Below are positions 15,834-35,838 of a DNA stretch of 64,000 nucleotides, piece by piece; positions within the stretch are counted from its first letter, which is position 1; every line of letters starts with the position of its first letter. Origin of the DNA: Alphaproteobacteria bacterium (lineage in GTDB: Bacteria; Pseudomonadota; Alphaproteobacteria; Caulobacterales; Hyphomonadaceae); the NCBI GenBank assembly GCA_018830285.1, contig JAHJSB010000063.1, forward strand, positions 124,001-188,000, given 5' to 3'. Made by a program: the position numbers and the translations under genes. Under the pieces are notes generated by a model, which had not been told where the DNA came from, made no database searches, and saw only the letters and a program-made list of their open reading frames with translations.

Positions 15834-17549
15834 ATGAGACTTCGCGGATTGATACTGGCCAGTGTGGCCGCAACAGCCCTGATCGCAGGGTGCACGACGG
15901 ACACCGGCGCGGCGGACGGAACCGTCGCTGACGCCAAGCCGGCAACATCGTCTGCGCCACCACCCCCTCCGCCGCCACCCATGGCCGAATCGGACCAGGC
16001 GCTTCAGGGCATTGTCGTGACGGGGAGCGGCAAGGACAGCCGCCAGGAGATGGGGCGCATGATTCCGTCACCCGTCATCATGGCCCCGCCCGAGCCTGAG
16101 TTCCGAGACCAGTATGAGGATGTCGAGTCGAACCCGGTCAAGCTGACCCGCGAAGAACCGGTCTCGACCTTCTCGATCGATGTCGACACGGCGTCCTACG
16201 CCAATGTCCGCCGCTTCCTGAAAGGCGGCACCTTGCCGCCCAAGGACGCCGTGCGGATCGAGGAACTGATCAATTATTTCGACTATGCCTATCCGCAACC
16301 GAAAGCGGGCAGTGACCCCTTCTCGACGCAGGTGGCAATGATGCCCTCGCCCTTCAATGCGGGGCGCGAGCTGATCCAGATCGGCATCCAGGGCCGCCAC
16401 ATTGACCGCGACGCCCGCCCGCCAATCAATTTGACGCTGCTGGTGGACGTGTCGGGCTCGATGCATTCGGAAGACAAGCTGCCGCTGGCGCGCCAGGCGA
16501 TGAAACTGATGTTGGAAGAGATGGAGCCGACCGATACGGTGGCGATCGTGGTCTATGCCGGCGCGGCCGGTGAAGTGCTGGCGCCGACGCCGGTGAGCGA
16601 CAAACGTAAGATCGTCGCGGCGCTTGAAAACCTGCGGGCCGGTGGCTCGACAGCTGGCGGCGAAGGCCTGCGGCTGGCCTATTCGCTGGCTGAGCAGGGC
16701 CTGAAGAAGGATGCGGTCAATCGCGTGATGCTGCTGACCGATGGCGATTTCAATGTCGGCATCTCCGACCCCGAACAGCTGGAAGACTTTGTCTCGCGCA
16801 AGCGGGAAACCGGCATCTATCTCTCTGTGCTCGGCTTCGGGCGCGGCAATTACAATGACGCGATGATGCAGAAGATCGCCCAGACCGGGAATGGCACGGC
16901 AGCCTACATCGATACGCTGAGCGAGGCGCGCAAAGTGCTGTCAGACGACCTGGCGGGCAATATTTTCCCGATTGCGGATGATGTGAAGATCCAGGTGGAG
17001 TTCAACCCGGCACGGATCGCGGAATACCGGCTGATCGGCTACGAGACGCGGATGCTGGACCGGGAAGACTTCAACAACGACAAGGTGGATGCCGGCGACA
17101 TTGGCGCAGGCACCAGCGTGACGGCGATCTATGAGGTCACGCCAACGGGCTCTGACGCGGCGCAGATTGACCCGCTGCGCTATGGCGAGGCGGCCAAGGC
17201 TGGCAGCGCAACGGGCGAGTATGCGTTCGTGAAGCTGCGCTACAAGGCGCCGGGCGCGGACACGTCAAAGCTGCTGACCTATCCCGTAACCGACACGAAC
17301 CGCGTGGCGAGCATCGACAAGGCCCCGGAATGGGCGCGCTTTGCGACCGCCGTGGCGGGCTTCGGCGAAATGCTGAAGGGTGGAGAAGCCCTTGGCACAG
17401 GCTTCGGCTGGGAGGCTATCCGAGAACTGGGGTCTGGCGCCAAGGGCAAGGATGAATTCGGCTATCGCGCCGAATTCATCGAACTGACCCGTCTGGCCGA
17501 GACGGCTGATGCGCAAGCGACGCTCAACCGGCCCAGCCAGGAAGAATAG
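15834..17549 (+). CDS. VWA-domain lipoprotein (YfbK-like, DUF3520-type C-terminus)
   Basis: Lipobox LIAGCTTD; SIDVDTASYANVRRFL; MIDAS LLVDVSGSMHSEDKLPLARQ; LLTDGDFNVGISDP. Confidence 0.92.
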   Translation: MRLRGLILASVAATALIAGCTTDTGAADGTVADAKPATSSAPPPPPPPPMAESDQALQGIVVTGSGKDSRQEMGRMIPSPVIMAPPEPEFRDQYEDVESNPVKLTREEPVSTFSIDVDTASYANVRRFLKGGTLPPKDAVRIEELINYFDYAYPQPKAGSDPFSTQVAMMPSPFNAGRELIQIGIQGRHIDRDARPPINLTLLVDVSGSMHSEDKLPLARQAMKLMLEEMEPTDTVAIVVYAGAAGEVLAPTPVSDKRKIVAALENLRAGGSTAGGEGLRLAYSLAEQGLKKDAVNRVMLLTDGDFNVGISDPEQLEDFVSRKRETGIYLSVLGFGRGNYNDAMMQKIAQTGNGTAAYIDTLSEARKVLSDDLAGNIFPIADDVKIQVEFNPARIAEYRLIGYETRMLDREDFNNDKVDAGDIGAGTSVTAIYEVTPTGSDAAQIDPLRYGEAAKAGSATGEYAFVKLRYKAPGADTSKLLTYPVTDTNRVASIDKAPEWARFATAVAGFGEMLKGGEALGTGFGWEAIRELGSGAKGKDEFGYRAEFIELTRLAETADAQATLNRPSQEE

Positions 17550-17552
17550 GCC

Positions 17553-17888
17553 TCAAGCGGCAATCTTGCGGGAGTGATCGGTGAAACAGACGGTCGAGAA
17601 GCCTTCCTCGATATCGTTCACCATCAGTTTGCGCGCCGCAGCGTCGAATTCGTGGGCGAGGAAGACGGCATTGGCGCCGTAACGCTCGGCCTCTGCCAGG
17701 GCCCAGATGGGCTGGAGGTCGTGCGGCCGACCCGACAGTTCGACGACCCGGATGAGGCGCCATCCATAGGCGTCCGGCGCGGCGAAGATGGCCACGCCCG
17801 GGCAACGTGCCCACGGGCCGTCCGGTGCCACGCGATTGAATTCCCAAGCCTTGCCAGACCGTCCCCGAAAACTAACTGTGATACCCAT
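17553..17888 (-). CDS. Conserved-looking protein of unknown function; candidate SOS/cell-cycle-regulated gene
   Basis: 111-aa ORF starting MGITVSFRGRSGKAWEF with AGGA SD; promoter carries two LexA-type boxes and a CtrA motif. Confidence 0.75.
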   Translation of the reverse strand: MGITVSFRGRSGKAWEFNRVAPDGPWARCPGVAIFAAPDAYGWRLIRVVELSGRPHDLQPIWALAEAERYGANAVFLAHEFDAAARKLMVNDIEEGFSTVCFTDHSRKIAA

Positions 17889-17903
17889 GTTCCTGCTCCG
17901 TTC
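17889..17903. promoter_or_regulatory. LexA-type box, proximal: GTTCctgctccGTTC
   Basis: Exact GTTC-N7-GTTC, the alphaproteobacterial LexA direct repeat; overlaps the SD. Confidence 0.75.
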
Positions 17904-17912
17904 TCTTGTCCT

Positions 17913-17927
17913 GTTCCTAATATGTTC
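17913..17927. promoter_or_regulatory. LexA-type box, distal: GTTCctaatatGTTC
   Basis: Exact GTTC-N7-GTTC; overlaps the probable -10 (TATTAG) on the minus strand. Confidence 0.8.
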
Positions 17928-17953
17928 CAAAAGAACGTGCAAGAATTTTTTAG

Positions 17954-17968
17954 TTAACAGCGGGTTAA
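17954..17968. promoter_or_regulatory. CtrA-type box TTAAcagcgggTTAA(CCAT)
   Basis: Exact TTAA-N7-TTAA with a TTAACCAT half. Confidence 0.65.
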
Positions 17969-17992
17969 CCATTCGGATCGGATTGCGTGGAT

Positions 17993-18328
17993 CTATTTAA
18001 CGACCGTGAAACGGCGCGTGTCGAAGACGCGAAGGACCTGTTTCAATTCGCGGCCCCGGCGCAGGATCTGGCCCGCGGAGCCATAGACGGCATATTGGCC
18101 CTGCCTGTTGGCGAGCGCCGGTTCCTTCTCGATCCGCCAGGTCGGGTTCTCGGCATGCCGACGGAAGATCGCGAAGATGGCGACATCCTTTTCCATGCCG
18201 ATGGCATAGTCGCGGGCCTCTCCGGAGATGACGAGCCGGCCATACACATCGAGGATGGGCTGCATCTCGGCCTTCTGGAAAGCGACCCGCGGTTCAGGCG
18301 CCAGCTTGCGCGGAAACGTGTCCGTCAT
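17993..18328 (-). CDS. DUF2794 family protein
   Basis: VAIFAIFRRHAENPTWRIEKEPALANRQGQYAVYGSAGQILRRGRELKQVLRVFD is characteristic of DUF2794. Confidence 0.85.
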   Translation of the reverse strand: MTDTFPRKLAPEPRVAFQKAEMQPILDVYGRLVISGEARDYAIGMEKDVAIFAIFRRHAENPTWRIEKEPALANRQGQYAVYGSAGQILRRGRELKQVLRVFDTRRFTVVK

Positions 18329-34176: not shown

Positions 34177-35418
34177 ATGACAGAGATTGAAACACCCCTT
34201 CGCCCACTGACCCGCCTGCAACAGAGCATGATCGCACTGGCCATGGTCGCCATGGGCGCCGGCATGACGATCAATTTCGTTGTCGTGGCGCCGCTGGCCC
34301 GCAAGGCCGGGCTTACCGAAATCCAGGTGGCGGGCATCCTGACGCTTTCGACCGTTATCTACACGATCATGATCCCGATCTGGGGCCGGATCGCGGACCG
34401 GGTGGGCCGCAAGCGCGTGATGGTCTTTTCACTGTTCGCCATGGGCCTGACCAACATGGCCTTCCTGTTCGCATTGAGCGCTGCGCTGGCCGGCGTCGTG
34501 ACGGGGATGACGACGTTCTTCTTGCTCGTCTTCGTCAGGGTATGGTTCGGCCTGCTTTCGCCGGGCCTGCAGCCTGCCTCGATGGCCGCGATGACGGACG
34601 CGACGACGACAATGACCCGCGCAGGCGGGCTTGGCATGCTGGGCGCGGCGATGAGTGTCGGCTCGATCCTCGGCCCGGCCGGCGCGGCGGTGCTGGCCCC
34701 GTTTGGCGCGCTGGTGCCACTCTGGGGCACGATCATCCTCAACCTCGTCGTCGGTGTCATCCTGGCGTTCGTCCTGCCGCGCAGCCGCGACCGGGTGCGC
34801 GAGAGCCACCGGCCGAAACCGCTCGCCTTCACCGATGCCCGCGTGCGGCCGCACCTGATGTTCCTGTTCATTTATTTCGTGGCCATCGGGATGATCCAGC
34901 AGACCGTTGGCTGGTTCATTGAAGACCGCTACGAATTCGTCGACACGGCCGCGCGTACGGCCGGTGAAATGGCGGTCCTCTTCACCGGCATCATCTTCTC
35001 CTGCCTCGCCTTCTCGATGATCGTCGTGCAATTCGGCTATATCACGCCCCGCAAGCCCGATCCGCGCCGTATCCTGCCCATCGGGCTCGGCCTTGTGACC
35101 ATCGGCTATGTCTGCGCTGACACGTTCCAACCCTTCTGGGCGATGTGCCTGAGCTTCCTTGTCGTGGGTGTCGGCGCCGCGCTGGCCGTGCCATCCGCCA
35201 ACGCGCTCGGCAGCCTGTCGGTTTCACGCGAGGAACAGGGCTCGGCCGCTGCGCTTCTGGCAGCGGCACCGCCTGCAGGGTTCATCTTCGGGCCGCTGAT
35301 CGGCGCCACGCTGTATTCGATCATGCCAAGCCTGCCGCTCGTGGCATCCGCAAGCGTTGTCGGCATACTGGCCGTCTACGCCTTCGTCGTCACGGCGCGC
35401 CGCCCGATCAGCCCATGA
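34177..35418 (+). CDS. MFS transporter
   Basis: About 12 TM segments; IWGRIADRVGRKRVMVFSL loop motif. Confidence 0.9.
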   Translation: MTEIETPLRPLTRLQQSMIALAMVAMGAGMTINFVVVAPLARKAGLTEIQVAGILTLSTVIYTIMIPIWGRIADRVGRKRVMVFSLFAMGLTNMAFLFALSAALAGVVTGMTTFFLLVFVRVWFGLLSPGLQPASMAAMTDATTTMTRAGGLGMLGAAMSVGSILGPAGAAVLAPFGALVPLWGTIILNLVVGVILAFVLPRSRDRVRESHRPKPLAFTDARVRPHLMFLFIYFVAIGMIQQTVGWFIEDRYEFVDTAARTAGEMAVLFTGIIFSCLAFSMIVVQFGYITPRKPDPRRILPIGLGLVTIGYVCADTFQPFWAMCLSFLVVGVGAALAVPSANALGSLSVSREEQGSAAALLAAAPPAGFIFGPLIGATLYSIMPSLPLVASASVVGILAVYAFVVTARRPISP

Positions 35419-35779
35419 TGAAGGCGTTGAGCTTGTTGCCGTCCGGATCGCGGAAATAGGCGGCATAGAAACCGCTATCGCCGCGCGGCCCGGGCGGGCC
35501 TTCATCCGTGCCGCCATGCGCCATGGCGATCTTGTAGAGGCGGTGGACCTGGTCCTCGTCCTTCGCCTGCAAGGCCACCATCGTGCCGTTGCCGACTGTC
35601 GCCGGCTGGCCGTCAAAAGGCAGCGTTGCAGCGATTCCGGCCGGGCCGTCCGGCGTACCCCAGGCGATGAACGTGTCGAATTCCATCATCCGCGGCGTGC
35701 CCATTTCAGCGGCAATCGCATCGTAGAATTCGGCGGCACGGGCGAGGTCGCTCACCCCTAAAGTTACGTATCCAATCAT
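35408..35779 (-). CDS. VOC/glyoxalase-family protein
   Basis: MIGYVTLGVSDLARAAEFYDAIAAEMG...SGFYAAYFRDPDGNKLNAFIM. Confidence 0.9.
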   Translation of the reverse strand: MIGYVTLGVSDLARAAEFYDAIAAEMGTPRMMEFDTFIAWGTPDGPAGIAATLPFDGQPATVGNGTMVALQAKDEDQVHRLYKIAMAHGGTDEGPPGPRGDSGFYAAYFRDPDGNKLNAFIMG

Positions 35780-35838
35780 GTCCTTCTCCCCAGTTGAGGA
35801 AAAGAACATATCATGAACACATATTTTAGAGCAAGTCC

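Follow-up and report, generated by a model that had tools for sequence, protein, structure and literature searches.

The minus-strand gene described here encodes a 111-aa protein and lies in a window of 64,000 nt, by which we mean the whole stretch of DNA that was analysed. We consider it probably to be a LexA-repressed, rapidly degraded and catalytically dead derivative of the GIY-YIG nucleases. An earlier, sequence-only reading of the window had put the gene forward as a candidate new member of the SOS response, and this proposal is supported by the conservation of both LexA-type boxes in its promoter and by an operator scan that groups the gene with recN and imuA as a predicted LexA target.

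The gene and its start codon

The open reading frame picked out by the sequence-only reading is a real gene, and alignment of its orthologs fixes the start codon (Table 1). We did not adopt the 139-aa version that an in-frame ATG at 17972 would give, since the orthologs start directly after the proximal LexA-type box, at the position equivalent to 17888. The sole exception is ortholog L052, whose start codon lies 3 nt further on. A gap of 104 nt separates the gene from its upstream neighbor. Close homologs occur in H. oceanitis, H. chukchiensis, H. johnsonii, and H. jannaschiana, and the source genome is therefore assigned to Hyphomonas.

Table 1 Features of the gene, its promoter and its neighbors (window positions).
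Feature	Position	Strand	Remarks
VWA/YfbK-type protein	15834..17549	+	Convergent 3' neighbor; synteny marker outside the SOS unit
CDS, 111 aa, probable degenerate GIY-YIG-related protein ending ...KIAA	17553..17888	-	ATG at 17888, stop codon end at 17553; based on homologs, fold and ortholog-aligned start
Terminal Ala-Ala codons (residues 110-111)	17556..17561	-	Putative ssrA-like ClpXP degron
Predicted proximal LexA operator GAACGGAGCAGGAAC (+ strand: GTTCCTGCTCCGTTC)	17889..17903	-	Exact GTTC-N7-GTTC; adjoins ATG and includes the GGAG Shine-Dalgarno
Predicted distal LexA operator GAACATATTAGGAAC (+ strand: GTTCCTAATATGTTC)	17913..17927	-	Exact GTTC-N7-GTTC; overlaps the likely -10
Likely -10, TATTAG	17917..17922	-	Read from sequence
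Likely -35 region, TTCTTGCAC	17937..17945	-	TTCTTGC conserved across Hyphomonas
CtrA-type palindrome TTAAC-N5-GTTAAC (TTAA-N7-TTAAC), TTAACAGCGGGTTAAC	17954..17969	.	Exact; about 80 nt before ATG
DUF2794 protein	17993..18328	-	Upstream neighbor; context only

A conserved pair of LexA-type operators

The two tandem LexA boxes claimed for this promoter are both exact and correctly placed. Their arrangement, with the proximal box over the Shine-Dalgarno sequence and the distal box over the likely -10, also agrees with the earlier description. The likely -10 is TATTAG/TATAGG-like in Hyphomonas and TATAA in the other genera. The pair, with its members 24 nt apart, had been judged unlikely to arise by chance, and two boxes indeed appeared in 0/2000 shuffles of the 110-nt upstream region, in which a single box appeared in 0.4% of cases. 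A lone GTTC-N7-GTTC site is no proof of an operator, since the window contains 3 such sites against 1.55 expected from shuffles. Genome-wide, 124 sites were counted, compared with 89 for the reversed pattern.

Elsewhere in the window (35408-35818, minus strand), a 123-aa VOC/glyoxalase-like gene with its start at 35779 has a candidate exact LexA-type box, GTTCATGATATGTTC, at 35804-35818, 24 nt before its ATG. The source genome also contains two overlapping GTTC-N7-GTTC sites with a common half-site (G000:C30:30041-30066, minus strand).

Both boxes recur in orthologous promoters, where the sequence-only reading had suggested looking for them. Among 55 alignable promoters, 40 from Hyphomonas and 15 from other genera of the Hyphomonadaceae, every one (55/55) has the proximal repeat GAACGGAGNNNGAAC, which with few exceptions runs right up to the ATG. 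An exact distal box is found in 39/40 Hyphomonas promoters, some of which have three consecutive half-sites. In the other genera the distal box takes the form GAAC-N7-GAAT (14/15), and its GAATATA runs into the TATAA -10. Since the protein identity of the orthologs to the window gene drops to about 29%, these promoter bases are maintained far beyond passive conservation, although part of the conservation of the proximal box could be attributable to the Shine-Dalgarno sequence. N7 is the dominant GAAC-GAAC spacing, with 101 occurrences; the next, N10 (33 occurrences), lies between neighboring boxes, and outside Hyphomonas only N7 is seen (15/15). Relatives from another family of the same order (hereafter f3) have two exact boxes in 18/18 promoters. 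These boxes lie 31-37 bp from each other, the second precedes the ATG by 13-50 nt, and the spacer sequences differ. No boxes were found in the promoters of Caulobacter-like relatives (f2) and paralogs (0/20).

Probable membership in the SOS core

The source genome encodes RecA and one LexA, and GAACACATGTAGAAC is present in the lexA promoter. The sequence GAACNWWWNNNGAAC occurs at nine sites genome-wide, including those of imuA, recN, rmuC, and the window gene. When seven genomes of other Hyphomonadaceae genera were scanned with GAACAAAANNNGAAYA, 22 matches were obtained, and the reversed control pattern gave 0. Seven matches belong to the ortholog of the window gene (7/7 genomes), five to recN, and five to imuA, which together account for 17/22; the other five are unassigned. 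The GAACAAAANNNGAAYA operator that the gene shares with recN and imuA is the strongest argument for placing it in the SOS core, and control of the gene by LexA is very likely.

A single LexA box is the rule in Caulobacter, where it is seen at about 97% of SOS promoters (PMC12700426), so the presence of two conserved boxes is unusual. Variants of the second half-site are not unusual in the Hyphomonadaceae, since the corresponding site of recA appears to be GAACAAANNNGGTAC. The recA promoters of this family (L198-L227) have GTTC-N4-GAAC followed by GAACAAANNNGGTACA, which replaces the plain GTTC-N7-GTTC. In f3 and in family f4, recA has a plain box ahead of the GTTC-N4-GAAC/GAACAAANNNGGTACA element. 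A literature search for an SOS study of Hyphomonas found none.

A CtrA-type site in Hyphomonas promoters

The full CtrA site reported at 17954 is an exact match, and the 64 kb contain no second one (chance mean 0.02). Its relaxed form, TTAA-N7-TTWA, is present at a fixed position, 80-81 nt ahead of the ATG, in 40/40 Hyphomonas promoters. The exact form, TTAA-N7-TTAA, is found in 15/40, and 24 of the remaining 25 read TTAA-N7-TTTAC. The relaxed form is present in 3/15 promoters of other genera, and a search of the f3 promoters found no CtrA-type site. This site may be a genus-level addition. The sequence-only reading went further and proposed cell-cycle gating by CtrA; the site is real and fixed in Hyphomonas, but since it is exact in the minority and nearly absent elsewhere, such gating is at this stage a guess.

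Probable GIY-YIG ancestry and loss of the catalytic residues

The product had been described as belonging to no recognized family. This holds for existing models, as scans of the family against Pfam, NCBIfam, and PHROG gave nothing significant and a profile search of PDB sequences gave no match, but the protein is probably a diverged branch of a lineage related to GIY-YIG. With the family profile, remote homologs could be detected in other parts of the order, and the profile match between f3 and the Hyphomonas family is strong (probability 98.6%, E 6.5e-16). The f3 sequences have the GIY-YIG layout (GVYCFARP...LFLSRTGNLxKRLxxHE...REYVEADLxxALRPVMN). An f3 member was modeled with AlphaFold (pLDDT 88), and the nine best PDB matches of this model were without exception UvrC GIY-YIG domains (probability 1.00, TM 0.60-0.68 by target). 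The model of the Hyphomonas protein (pLDDT 84) is globular and has the same order of strands and helices as the f3 model. A Foldseek search with this model against PDB and viral structures gave no convincing match, and direct hhalign to UvrC-type GIY-YIG sequences found the correct register at both ends with a probability of at most 12%. A GIY-YIG ancestry of the window protein is very likely, and a GIY-YIG fold of the Hyphomonas protein itself is predicted by way of its relatives.

A class-wide search also revealed a paralog in the source genome (L194; G000:C58:193644-193946, minus strand) in which GIY, YIG, R-x3-H, and E-x11-N are intact. This paralog shares the N-terminal F-G-SG motif and has no LexA box; its best Pfam match is GIY-YIG, below the cut-off. 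It is probably an active representative of this lineage.

In f3, five of the six catalytic columns are kept in 18/18 sequences (Y32, R56, H60, E89, and N101), and the Tyr and Gly of YIG are changed to Phe and Ser, respectively. The R/H and E/N spacings are the same as those of Eco29kI (R104/H108 and E142/N154) (PMC1952068). In Hyphomonas, the catalytic columns read A/V, R, D, I, V/A/M, and variable, so that none of the six residues is kept (R to D, H to I, and E to V/A/M), and the protein is therefore classed as a GIY-YIG derivative and not as a nuclease. Single changes of Eco29kI (Y49A, H108F, or E142A) abolish cleavage, and its Y49, R104, and E142 mutants, which have lost cleavage, still bind DNA robustly (PMC1952068). 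The Hyphomonas protein could thus still bind DNA despite having lost catalysis.

An invariant Ala-Ala C-terminus

Ala-Ala forms the C-terminus of every one of the 53 distinct sequences from the Hyphomonadaceae (31 LAA and 13 IAA). The tail before these residues varies in length and sequence (proteins of 109-124 aa) and is predicted to be disordered (pLDDT below 50). The same ending is found in 16/18 f3 proteins. There is a single case among about 50 window genes and another among about 28 relatives that lack LexA boxes; with one exception, it is absent from the f2 relatives and paralogs. The tmRNA (ssrA) tag of the source genome, ANDNSAEGQLLAA, ends in ...QLLAA. Caulobacter CtrA, a ClpX substrate, has a degron that is likewise Ala-Ala-terminated (...VNAA) (PMC8138137). 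The tail of the window protein is likely to act as a built-in ClpXP degron.

Proposed mechanism and alternative explanations

We propose that this gene belongs to the core of the Hyphomonadaceae LexA regulon and that LexA would repress it through two operators, the first covering the -10 and the second covering the ribosome-binding site together with the start codon. Upon DNA damage, RecA filaments would induce the self-cleavage of LexA, and the gene would be derepressed. The product would be derived from an SOS-controlled GIY-YIG nuclease, with all catalytic residues gone in the Hyphomonadaceae, and would act on branched or damaged DNA, or on a repair protein, by binding and not by cutting. 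Its ssrA-like Ala-Ala C-terminus would hand it to ClpXP, and the protein would be present only as a short pulse. The operators and their conservation, the operator common to recN and imuA, the catalytic losses, and the invariance of Ala-Ala are read from sequence; LexA binding, induction by damage, and degradation of the product by ClpXP are predictions. Since no catalytic residues are left, the protein most likely acts by binding DNA or a repair protein, and we give a non-catalytic binding role roughly an even chance. Our more specific and tentative suggestion is that an SOS GIY-YIG nuclease present in the ancestor of the order became, in the Hyphomonadaceae, a pulse-expressed pseudo-nuclease that kept the double LexA switch and the degron, possibly as a DNA-damage-specific competitor or adaptor, e.g., of UvrC-type repair or branched DNA.

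An SOS-induced inhibitor of growth or division, following the logic of SidA/SulA, would also suit a tight double operator and a degron-like tail, as expected for a product harmful at the wrong time. ClpXP turnover would then allow recovery, the CtrA-type site of Hyphomonas would suit coupling to the cell cycle, and the GIY-YIG ancestry would be incidental. However, the protein lacks a membrane segment, bears no resemblance to division inhibitors, and has no link to septation, and the f3 relatives retain most of the nuclease active site, so this explanation seems unlikely. The earlier comparison with the logic of the Caulobacter SOS division inhibitors is likewise unsupported, as the protein shows no septation feature and the nearest fold is a GIY-YIG nuclease domain. 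The kinship with nucleases raises the question of whether the protein still cuts DNA, as a minimal UvrC/Cho-type repair endonuclease with a rearranged active site. The f3 proteins would favor this, since they keep five catalytic residues at the Eco29kI spacing (PMC1952068) and their predicted fold matches the UvrC GIY-YIG domain, but the replacement of all six positions in the Hyphomonadaceae, any one of three of which suffices to abolish cleavage when changed in Eco29kI (PMC1952068), makes it quite improbable.

The GAAC repeats themselves might be read as a conserved translation-initiation or other regulatory leader and not as LexA operators, since the proximal repeat overlaps the Shine-Dalgarno sequence and adjoins the ATG in nearly all Hyphomonadaceae. 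Both f3 boxes, however, lie 13-50 nt clear of the start codon with the exact N7 kept, and the distal motif is the same operator as that ahead of imuA and recN. We regard a leader of this kind as highly improbable.

Relation to known systems

The predicted f3 fold aligns over about 80 residues with the N-terminal GIY-YIG domain of UvrC (PDB 1ycz, 1yd2-1yd6; TM 0.60-0.68). There is no Pfam-level similarity to UvrC, and the Hyphomonas protein lacks the catalytic residues as well as the UvrB-binding and RNase H parts and has an extra N-terminal beta hairpin. Cho of E. coli is an SOS-induced, catalytically active UvrC homologue, which is LexA-regulated, GIY-YIG-derived, and encoded outside the uvr operon; SOS-regulated GIY-YIG proteins are thus already known in principle. 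The window gene resembles it in its predicted LexA regulation, its GIY-YIG derivation, and its location outside the uvr operon, whereas Cho is larger and active and the window protein is a degenerate protein of 111 aa with an Ala-Ala tail. SidA and DidA of Caulobacter are membrane peptides that act on the divisome. The window gene is similarly a small gene of unannotated type under predicted DNA damage control, but its product has no membrane segment or family match, and its predicted fold is globular. The LexA regulon of Caulobacter crescentus uses the same GTTC-N7-GTTC operator for the same target class (PMC12700426); single boxes predominate there (PMC12700426), whereas the window gene has two that are conserved across genera.

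A literature search combining GIY-YIG and LexA found no matching system, and among the papers searched, few of them from subscription journals, none described a catalytically dead, degron-tagged GIY-YIG protein controlled by a conserved pair of LexA operators. With this gene, the alphaproteobacterial SOS regulon would gain a lineage-wide member beside recN and imuA that is undescribed by the Pfam, NCBIfam, and PHROGs models. The intact paralog, the near-intact f3 SOS form, and the dead Hyphomonadaceae form seem to represent a natural series in which the change from a repair nuclease to a non-catalytic SOS factor can be studied. The double operator combined with the putative built-in degron makes the gene well suited to testing for SOS outputs that take the form of a pulse.

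Distribution and descent of the gene

The gene is present in 41/42 Hyphomonas genomes searched and in 15/19 genomes of other Hyphomonadaceae. The convergent VWA/YfbK neighbor is found at 23/40 Hyphomonas loci, 7 loci of other genera, and 9/18 f3 loci. Since synteny, operators, and tail are all shared, the Hyphomonadaceae and f3 genes are considered to be vertically descended. Searches for phage relatives with the window protein and for plasmid relatives with an f3 relative found none, and a mobile origin is therefore unsupported. In one genus of the Hyphomonadaceae (g4; G044, G053, G137, G142, G171, G266, and G314), the gene is present in some species only, pointing to repeated loss. Genome G283 of family f5, a family otherwise without the gene, has a strong partial match (C149:1979-2197, E 6.6e-34), which would reflect either transfer or contamination (3% estimated contamination).
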